Origin: Bacteroidales bacterium
Lineage (GTDB): Bacteria > Bacteroidota > Bacteroidia > Bacteroidales > M50B96
Reading direction: 5' to 3'
Assembly: GCA_018401015.1 (NCBI GenBank)
Contig: JAGYLP010000007.1
Span: 62,001-126,000, forward strand
Length of the DNA stretch: 64,000 bases
Below, piece after piece: positions 20,092 to 24,793 of the stretch (position 1 is its first letter; every line of letters begins with the position of its first letter). A program made the translations under genes and the position numbers. A model generated the notes under the pieces. The model was given only the letters and a program-made list of their open reading frames with translations, was not told the DNA's origin and searched no databases.

Positions 20092-20439
20092 ATGAAAATG
20101 CTAAGAACTGCTATTCACGAAATTGAAACAGCTGCTGAATTAGAAAAACTGATACAAGAAAACGAACAAGTAATGGTATGCTGCGGTCGTATGGGTCCGA
20201 TGTGTATTCCTGTATACGAAACAATGGAAGAACTCGAAGAAGAGCGTCCCTCCATAAAGTTCTATTCCATGTCTTTCGATACTCCCGAAGCAGCTCCCAT
20301 TCGTAATGCTCCCATGTGTCGCGGATTCATGGGACTTCCCTTTACCGTTTACTATAAAAATGGACAAATGGTCGAAGCAACCACCAGCATTCAAAGCCGT
20401 GAACAAATTGAATCCATTCTCGACGCTCAATTCAATTAG
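20092..20439 (+). CDS. Atypical thioredoxin-like protein
   Basis: A 115-residue cytoplasmic thioredoxin-fold protein. The usual WCGPC is replaced by VCCGRMGPMCIPV: cysteines are at C30, C31 and C38, so the redox pair would be C31-x6-C38 or C30-x7-C38. The cis-proline loop is intact (MGLPFTVYY, P83) and a fourth cysteine, C76, lies just before it. The gene directly precedes trxB, so TrxB is a likely electron donor. I infer a dedicated redox carrier; the activity is unproven. Confidence 0.82.
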   Translation: MKMLRTAIHEIETAAELEKLIQENEQVMVCCGRMGPMCIPVYETMEELEEERPSIKFYSMSFDTPEAAPIRNAPMCRGFMGLPFTVYYKNGQMVEATTSIQSREQIESILDAQFN

Positions 20440-22838: not shown

Positions 22839-24155
22839 CTATTGATGGCGAAATAAGAATACATCCCCCGCTCGTTCCTGTCGGTTACCGTAGCGGTCTT
22901 CGGTGTAGATTTTCCAAATATAAAAGCCCTCCGATGCAGGTTGCTGCGTGCTTTGAACGAATCCGTTCCAGTGTTCATTCGGATCTTGTGAACGAAATAC
23001 CAAACCACCGTTTCGGGAATAAATCTCGAGCAAATACTCCATTTCTTGCAAGTAATCGGCTACTGGCCCAAAAACATCGTTCTCGCCATCGCCATCGGGT
23101 GTAAAAGCATTCCCCATATAAACCGGATGAATAATCCTAACCTCAAGGGTATCGGTCGATTCACTCTTACATCCAAAAGCATTACTTACCTGTAAGCTAA
23201 CCAAGTACAAGCCATTACGAACGAGCTGCTCTTCCATCTGATAGAGCCCTTCACGCTTATCTCCATGAATAAACCAGGTAAACTGATGCGCCTCTTTTAC
23301 CTCTTGTGGGGTAAATGAATAGTAGAATTCATCGCGAAGAACAGTGAATTCTGCTGTTGGAGCAGGATAAACTTCAATTGGAGTAGATAATTCATACTCA
23401 GCAGTTAAACCTGAAATAGGATAGCTTAGAACTAACTTGATAGTGTATTCGCCAGGTTCCTGGAAATGAAACTCCGGGAGAATCTGCTTGGAAACCTGAC
23501 CATCGGAGGTCTCCCAACGATAGCGGATACTATCGGCTTGTTCTATCGGATAAACGTTCAAATAAAGCGGCGCACAACCGGAAGCAAGGCTCAGGCTAAA
23601 GCGTGCATCGGGCGGTTTGGGTGCTGTTTTTTCTATTTCTTGGTCAGCTACGGGCTCCTCGATAGGTTTAGCCTCATGCGAAGCGGAACTCAGACTTTTC
23701 TCTGCAGATGGAGATGGGGGAGTGCTCTTGTCGCCGGTGGAAGCAGCTGCCTCAGCCACACTCTCAGTTCTCGAACCCGATTCTTGACCAAGAGGTTCAT
23801 CTTGCTCCGGTGTAACAACGGGAGTTGAAACGGAATCGTCAATTGCCTTTGGCTGAATAGGGTCTTGACTGAAATCAGTGTTTTCAACAAGAGGGGTAGT
23901 AACACTTGAGTCTTCCGGTCGATCTATATAGAGAATCGTTGCAATCACACCCGCCAAGAAAACCACTGCTGCAGCCCATGGCCAAAAGGATGATTTAATA
24001 ACCGACGGTGCACTCGGAGCTTTTGGAGGTAAATCCTTCTCCAACCGCGCCCAATCATCGGGTTGATACTCGTAGTCAAGGTCGTTAACCCAATCTCGTA
24101 ATTTACTTTCAAAAGAGGAATCTTCGTGTTCTTTCATTTTTTTATCCTCATTCAT
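22839..24155 (-). CDS. Membrane protein coupled to ECF sigma factor, with PKD-like and T9SS type B-like C-terminal domains
   Basis: A 438-residue protein. Residues 1-50 are cytoplasmic and charged (SKLRDWVNDLDYEYQPDDWARLE), the usual position of an anti-sigma domain. A single membrane helix follows (~52-75, WPWAAAVVFLAGVIATILYI), then a Ser/Thr/Glu-rich linker, a PKD-like beta region (~180-335) and a C-terminal domain from about 345. This last part has NAFTPDGDGENDVFGP, LEIYSRNGGLVFRS and GFYIWKIYTEDRYGN, typical of the gliding-motility/type B sorting domain. There is no cleavable signal peptide. It overlaps the sigma gene by 8 bases, so the two are coupled. I infer a membrane regulator of the sigma factor. 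Confidence 0.85.
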   Translation of the reverse strand: MNEDKKMKEHEDSSFESKLRDWVNDLDYEYQPDDWARLEKDLPPKAPSAPSVIKSSFWPWAAAVVFLAGVIATILYIDRPEDSSVTTPLVENTDFSQDPIQPKAIDDSVSTPVVTPEQDEPLGQESGSRTESVAEAAASTGDKSTPPSPSAEKSLSSASHEAKPIEEPVADQEIEKTAPKPPDARFSLSLASGCAPLYLNVYPIEQADSIRYRWETSDGQVSKQILPEFHFQEPGEYTIKLVLSYPISGLTAEYELSTPIEVYPAPTAEFTVLRDEFYYSFTPQEVKEAHQFTWFIHGDKREGLYQMEEQLVRNGLYLVSLQVSNAFGCKSESTDTLEVRIIHPVYMGNAFTPDGDGENDVFGPVADYLQEMEYLLEIYSRNGGLVFRSQDPNEHWNGFVQSTQQPASEGFYIWKIYTEDRYGNRQERAGDVFLFRHQ

Positions 24156-24720
24156 TATTCATTCTATTTTCGTAAAATAAGGTTCGTATTTTCTGGCGTG
24201 CCCGCGAATAAGTTGACTTTGAACTCGATACCGAAATCCCTAACTCATCCGCTACCTGCTGATGAGAATAGCCTTCAAAGACGATTAAGTTGACCACCAC
24301 GCGGGCCATTCTCGGTAGCTGCTGAATAAGCTCAACAATTAGTCGGGCATCGGCCTGAATAATCTCTTCATCGCTTATTCCAAAAGGATCGTTCGGCTCT
24401 TCTTGCCCAAATACTTCCTCTATTTCAGTGGCTATAAACCGCTTGTTGTTCCGAATTGTATCCAAGGCATTATTGACCAAAATCCTTTTAACCCAACCTT
24501 CCAAAGAACCTTTAAATTTAAAGCCCGACATATTCACAAATACCTTGATGAATCCATCGTGCATCATATCTTTTGCCTCGTTCACATCCGAAGCATAACG
24601 CATACAGATACCCAATGCCAAACTATAAAAATGCTTGTAAAATGCTTGCTGTGCTTCTCGGTCGCCGTCCAAACATTGCTTGATGACTTTTTGGGCTGTT
24701 TCCTGATTCGATAGATCCAT
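24148..24720 (-). CDS. ECF-type RNA polymerase sigma factor
   Basis: A 190-residue sigma-70 family factor. Region 2 covers about residues 25-95 (FYSLALGICMRYASDVNEAKDMMHDGF, with the GWVKRILVNNALDTIR -10-binding helix). Region 4 covers about 130-185 (LPRMARVVVNLIVFEGYSHQQVADELGISVSSSKSTYSRARQKI). It probably directs a specific set of envelope genes, and the next gene encodes its likely membrane-bound regulator. Confidence 0.96.
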   Translation of the reverse strand: MDLSNQETAQKVIKQCLDGDREAQQAFYKHFYSLALGICMRYASDVNEAKDMMHDGFIKVFVNMSGFKFKGSLEGWVKRILVNNALDTIRNNKRFIATEIEEVFGQEEPNDPFGISDEEIIQADARLIVELIQQLPRMARVVVNLIVFEGYSHQQVADELGISVSSSKSTYSRARQKIRTLFYENRMNNE

Positions 24721-24793
24721 ATTTACAAGCGATTCAGCCCCTAGACGGAGGACTTTCTAAAAGGTTGCATTTTTTTTCAAAAAGACCGAAAAT

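Follow-up and report, generated by a model that had tools for sequence, protein, structure and literature searches.

Several systems are known in which an ECF sigma factor is tied to the envelope or to secretion. Dma of B. thetaiotaomicron has, in order from the N-terminus, an anti-sigma domain, a transmembrane (TM) helix, a long disordered tether and, at the C-terminus, a beta-barrel; an ECF21 sigma factor adjoins it (PMC13088901). For the PorA-PorXY-SigP system of Porphyromonas gingivalis, feedback has been proposed from the function of the type IX secretion system (T9SS) to an ECF sigma factor via a protein with a C-terminal domain (CTD) (PMC7712824). In Flavobacterium psychrophilum, the SM6 promoters are reported to be an ECF promoter class that contains T9SS machinery genes together with its own ECF/anti-sigma pair (PMC9723704). 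Only 6% of the ECF sigma factors of Bacteroidetes have a class I anti-sigma factor nearby, and the class II anti-sigma factor CnrY works with a pair of helices (PMC7406223). In both P. gingivalis and F. johnsoniae, PorP-like proteins are binding partners of type B CTD proteins (PMC9143113).

The window analysed here is a stretch of 64,000 nt from a Bacteroidales bacterium (GCA_018401015.1, contig JAGYLP010000007.1, positions 62,001-126,000 of the forward strand). The gene at 24148..24720 on the minus strand encodes a 190-aa ECF sigma factor, with regions 2 (residues 27-94) and 4 (residues 126-178) only. Pfam Sigma70_r2 and Sigma70_r4_2 are both above their curated cut-offs in a profile search, and NCBIfam TIGR02937 scores 83.9 bits against a cut-off of 42.9. 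The second gene (22839..24155, minus strand) encodes a 438-aa protein, a putative trans-envelope anti-sigma factor with a T9SS type B CTD. The two reading frames overlap by 8 bp (24148..24155), exactly where the first-pass annotation had put them, and translational coupling of the two genes across this overlap is likely.

Hydropathy analysis of the 438-aa protein gave one strong hydrophobic segment (residues 59-77) and found no N-terminal signal peptide. An AlphaFold2 model built on 18 aligned sequences has helices at residues 15-25 and 32-41, a TM helix at 59-76, disorder from 78 to 176 and a chain of beta domains from 184 to 436 with a pLDDT of about 95. We place a two-helix cytoplasmic domain, putatively sigma-binding, at residues 15-41 (24033..24113). 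This is followed by the single TM helix at residues 59-76 (23928..23981) and by a disordered tether rich in Pro, Glu and Ser at residues 78-176 (23628..23924, pLDDT about 32). The cytoplasmic type of N-terminus, the one membrane helix and the lack of a cleavable signal peptide, all proposed in the first-pass annotation, are thus upheld by hydropathy and by the model. With a TM helix at 59-77 and no Sec signal peptide, the protein is not an ordinary cargo protein, and we infer that it is anchored in the inner membrane.

The PKD-like part that had been proposed is present, not as a single region but as two beta domains, at about residues 184-265 (23361..23606) and 266-343 (23127..23360); the matches to Pfam PKD_4 and PKD both exceed their cut-offs. 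They precede a CHU_C, or T9SS type B sorting, domain at about residues 347-436 (22848..23117). This bears out the type B-like C-terminus claimed earlier: Pfam CHU_C scores 41.6 bits (cut-off 27), and the stricter type B model, NCBIfam TIGR04131, scores 33.1 bits, slightly below its cut-off of 35. Among solved folds, fragments of the Aureispira grappling hook protein GhpA ranked highest against the model; by sequence, the match between the C-terminus of GhpA and the window CTD is weak (E 0.46).

An HMM search for an anti-sigma domain in the N-terminus had been suggested as a check, and its outcome was negative: no curated anti-sigma model in Pfam or NCBIfam matches, and a sequence comparison with the PDB gave chance matches only. 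Nor does the domain have the features of a class I anti-sigma domain (ASDI), as it belongs to no curated family and is modelled with two helices, not four. The putative assignment of the N-terminus as a sigma-binding anti-sigma domain comes instead from its constant adjacency to sigma genes, the two helices ahead of the TM segment and the Dma-like layout.

The adjacency was examined at two levels. From an order-level sample of 198 genomes we examined 18 full-length relatives besides the window protein, mostly at 23-31% identity, and a sigma gene lies immediately upstream in 16 of them, usually overlapping; it is missing at the other two (L014 and L034). Trp35 of the N-terminal domain is invariant among the relatives compared. 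At class level, a profile of the first 49 residues has matches in 116 of 198 genomes. In the 30 best loci for this profile, of which the window is one, the sigma gene is always directly upstream (30/30), overlapping its partner by up to 29 bp or ending no more than 75 bp ahead of the partner's start. The C-termini at these loci comprise 25 CHU_C domains, four short proteins (240-275 aa) and one protein (L330) that is possibly barrel-ended, its OMP match being weak only; a single-sequence structure model of L330 had a pLDDT of 36 and was kept out of the analysis. The survey of sigma/CTD pairs that had been proposed as a further check therefore came out in favour of a pair conserved through the class, with the CTD retained at 25 of 30 loci despite low sequence identity. 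A sigma-based search of named genomes gave five distant loci, and our search detected a directly coupled CHU_C protein at none of them (0/5).

The N-terminal domain accompanies sigma genes whatever C-terminus follows, and this is our main reason for labelling it as sigma-binding. It also bears on the suggestion that the second gene encodes an effector, either membrane-bound or exported, that is simply co-expressed with the sigma factor. The missing match to any known anti-sigma domain would agree with an effector, but the protein has no signal peptide, its cytoplasmic two-helix N-terminus carries an invariant Trp, and the adjacency is constant whether the C-terminus is a beta-barrel, a CTD or neither; we consider an effector very improbable.

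Two loci of this family deserve separate mention. At L012 (G049:C694) the anti-sigma frame is broken by a TAA into 286 + 150 aa, which may reflect a sequencing error, readthrough or a pseudogene. At L151 (G148:C5:99900-108400) there is a second anti-sigma-like gene ending in CHU_C; it is led by a motif promoter of its own, and the gene directly ahead of it is not a sigma gene.

Upstream of the window sigma gene there is an ECF-type promoter sequence, GCAACC-N15-CGTCTA (24742..24768, minus strand), which ends 21 bp ahead of the start codon and is conserved before orthologous sigma genes. In paired loci the element GCAACY-N15-CGTC, at 24744-24768 in the window, is located between -31 and -49 relative to the sigma start. 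Besides the window, the order contributes 16 paired loci, and 14 of these have the promoter with exactly this spacer length: 12 in the CGTC form (L009-L013, L015, L016 and L018-L022) and two in the CGTT form (L017 and L024). At L025 the spacer is shorter by one base, and at L023 the promoter is missing. In genomes G148 and G035 a separate copy of the promoter stands before each of three genes: the sigma gene, the anti-sigma gene and the gene that follows.

We scanned genomes for the strict pattern RGCAACYN15CGTCW, using the reversed pattern as a control. The 15 related genomes with a full-length relative contain 98 sites against 28 control sites, whereas 16 genomes of the order without a full-length relative contain 32 against 83 (Fisher p 6e-15 for 98/28 vs 32/83; base composition is unequal between the two sets, each of which has its internal control). 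The excess is clear in about six of 16 further genomes of the class. Distinct motif sites are intergenic in 78 of 89 cases, compared with 3 of 28 control sites (p 7e-14), the latter being mostly in coding DNA and so controlling for composition, not for intergenic position. The next gene downstream encodes a signal peptide, by a simple hydropathy rule, at 56/89 motif sites and at 4/28 control sites.

These results also address the possibility that the genes behind GCAACY-N15-CGTC are mainly under another ECF sigma factor of the genome, with the pair as just one more of them. ECF promoters within one group are often alike, and a similar sequence, GCAACC-N15-TGTC, is found upstream of the related sigma genes at L039 and L040. 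The motif excess, however, tracks the presence of the pair, and in the window's genome, where 14 sigma-family genes were checked, a site scoring 12/13 occurs only at the window sigma gene. Control mainly by another sigma factor is therefore improbable.

The genes behind the motif are rich in sorting domains. Among 60 complete proteins encoded by the first two genes behind motif sites, 22 end in CHU_C (type B) and 16 in Por_Secre_tail (type A), so that 38/60 have T9SS sorting domains; four others are IspD. With our home-made models, a sorting domain was recognised in 43 of 92 genes of motif-led operons and in 16 of 149 neighbouring genes (p 5e-10). The regulon predicted from these counts is thus T9SS cargo. 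Comparative genomics strongly supports a promoter-reading role of this kind, and the window sigma factor very probably controls T9SS cargo genes. The predicted regulon also gives real content to the idea, put forward in the first-pass annotation, that the pair senses type IX secretion. The idea that the sigma factor controls the T9SS machinery itself found no support, as we recognised neither SprA nor PorV nor any Gld gene in the set of targets examined.

Units of two genes recur behind the motif (L136, L138, L139, L152, L155, L158, L163, L168, L169, L188 and L189): the product of the first gene is small (about 130-210 aa) and usually secreted, and it may serve as a dedicated partner for that of the second, a CHU_C protein with a length of about 700-1570 aa.

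In the window's own genome the strict pattern gave one site against four control sites, with no overall excess, and the regulon prediction consequently rests on the relatives. A further scan covered 1.63 Mb (about 57%) of this genome, so that the list of its targets is incomplete. In the scanned part, two giant CHU_C genes that encode signal peptides (L193 and L283) are preceded, at 27 and 32 bp, by one-mismatch sites of correct spacing, and of 38 genes with good sites 4 are CHU_C genes, compared with 16 of 1312 genes overall. There is an exact site before ispD, a target that recurs in four relatives. In the five genomes, including that of the window, in which ispD lies behind the motif (L074, L164, L175, L179 and L185), the next gene encodes a product of about 140 aa, which is secreted in the window's genome. 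Within the window, a one-mismatch site (20377-20401) before a thioredoxin-reductase-like gene was considered to be due to chance.

An exact copy of the ECF promoter (the motif found in L078/L092) also precedes a gene on G000:C78 (L186:6439-8286, minus strand) that encodes a secreted 615-aa protein. The gene has an in-frame TGA in FFFNS-U-PTCQ, in a thioredoxin-like context, with a stem-loop right after the TGA and a tRNA-Sec gene adjoining, and the protein has a type-A-like T9SS tail. From these sequence features, the product looks like a T9SS-exported selenoprotein.

The window's genome also encodes further single-TM proteins coupled to sigma genes. One of them (L224:3505-5169, plus strand, C12; 554 aa) ends in CHU_C, with TIGR04131 over its cut-off, and another (L278:1444-2904, minus strand, C18) ends in a Pfam OMP_b-brl_2 barrel. 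Barrel-ended and CTD-ended versions thus coexist in one genome. Two more (L265:2661-4373, minus strand, C46; L287:18040-19653, minus strand, C23) have barrel-like ends with no Pfam match. Judged by their predicted architecture, the four proteins are a small family of trans-envelope regulators. The SprA gene and six genes of the PorP/SprF family are present as well, which indicates that a T9SS exists in this organism and could supply receptors for type B domains.

In order to compare the CTDs of the anti-sigma-like proteins with those of cargo, we built a tree from the last 100 residues of 42 anti-sigma and 39 cargo CTDs. All 42 anti-sigma CTDs lie on one side of a branch (96/74) that separates them from the 39 cargo CTDs; many other forks are weak. 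An FGP motif is frequent after the DGDG-ND box in the anti-sigma CTDs. The tree fits one origin and a specialised role for the anti-sigma CTDs. Such separation is also what would be expected if the CHU_C fold had been co-opted as an ordinary periplasmic sensor, of peptidoglycan, outer-membrane or ligand state, with the same pair and the same cargo regulon but with no engagement of the T9SS. The FGP motif, the TIGR04131 score just below its cut-off and the five of 30 N-terminal-profile relatives that have no CTD all agree with a sensor of this type. Conversely, the predicted regulon consists of cargo bearing the same domain, and the CTD has been kept across the class in spite of low identity. 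We regard a purely periplasmic sensor as rather unlikely, and infer that the CTD tail reports the state of the T9SS to the sigma factor.

Taken together, the data suggest the following model for such T9SS reporting. It is highly probable, on the comparative evidence, that the ECF sigma factor reads GCAACY-N15-CGTC and drives its own operon and T9SS cargo genes. With equally high confidence, the two-helix N-terminus would hold the sigma factor at the inner membrane, as the conserved linkage and the layout suggest. The disordered tether would span the periplasm and, somewhat more probably than otherwise, the PKD-PKD-CHU_C tail, which is built like the C-terminus of cargo, would dock on outer-membrane parts of the T9SS. 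Its dock would most plausibly be either the SprA pore or a receptor of the PorP/SprF type that recognises type B domains. On balance, we lean towards the combined reading that the pair makes transcription of T9SS cargo genes follow the state of the T9SS.

How the signal might be passed on is speculative. We tentatively propose that when a receptor is free the tail engages it and the anti-sigma factor is inactivated, by pulling or by regulated proteolysis, which frees the sigma factor for the production of cargo. The tails of this cargo might then compete for the receptor, turning the circuit off and returning the sigma factor to the membrane. We prefer this licensing sign of control because the targets are cargo and not machinery, and expressing cargo is sensible at times of free export capacity; control of the opposite sign is possible. 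A more specific version, possible but less than probable, is that the anti-sigma factor is a stalled or conditional T9SS substrate, with its CTD threaded through or docked at SprA/PorP-type machinery while the N-terminus holds the sigma factor. If this were true, a single polypeptide would join the transcription machinery to the type IX export gate, and free export capacity would license cargo transcription.

The pair resembles PorA-PorXY-SigP in that a CTD-bearing, T9SS-related protein is tied to an ECF sigma factor. In P. gingivalis, however, the CTD protein is on the surface and acts via a two-component system, and SigP controls T9SS component genes (PMC7712824), whereas in our pair the putative anti-sigma factor itself carries the CTD and the predicted regulon is cargo. 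With SM6 the pair shares a promoter class in which T9SS-related genes and an ECF/anti-sigma operon both have an ECF-type -10 box that contains CGT; in contrast, the F. psychrophilum targets include machinery (GldN and PorU) (PMC9723704). In the text consulted, neither report describes a CTD on an anti-sigma factor, and the second gives no architecture for its anti-sigma factor (PMC7712824; PMC9723704). In open-access full text, subscription papers aside, we found no published description of such a sigma/CTD-anti-sigma pair. The short two-helix cytoplasmic domain recalls that of CnrY, a resemblance of secondary structure only, as no sequence match was found.

In the flagellar FlgM/FliA checkpoint, an anti-sigma factor that is recognised by the export machine makes transcription of the late secreted parts follow export competence. 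The regulatory logic that we propose for the window pair is alike, but there is no homology, and FlgM is soluble and fully exported whereas the window protein is predicted to be membrane-anchored. With a conserved sigma factor that has a predicted T9SS-cargo regulon, and a putative anti-sigma factor that has a cargo-type sorting domain, the cell may match cargo output to export capacity. The pair makes this coupling directly testable.

Finally, the window protein shares with Dma an N-terminal domain, a single TM helix, a long disordered tether and an ECF sigma factor next door. It differs in ending in PKD-PKD-CHU_C and not in a beta-barrel, and in a predicted regulon of T9SS cargo where that of Dma consists of vesiculation genes or polysaccharide utilization loci. 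As the barrel is absent, we have not filed the protein as Dma. By analogy, it is probably a Dma variant in which the beta-barrel has been replaced by a T9SS domain, and it probably works like Dma. This suggests a general design in the phylum, in which one anti-sigma chassis of helices, TM segment and tether carries swappable sensors directed to the outer membrane, with a beta-barrel for Dma and a T9SS CTD for the window protein.
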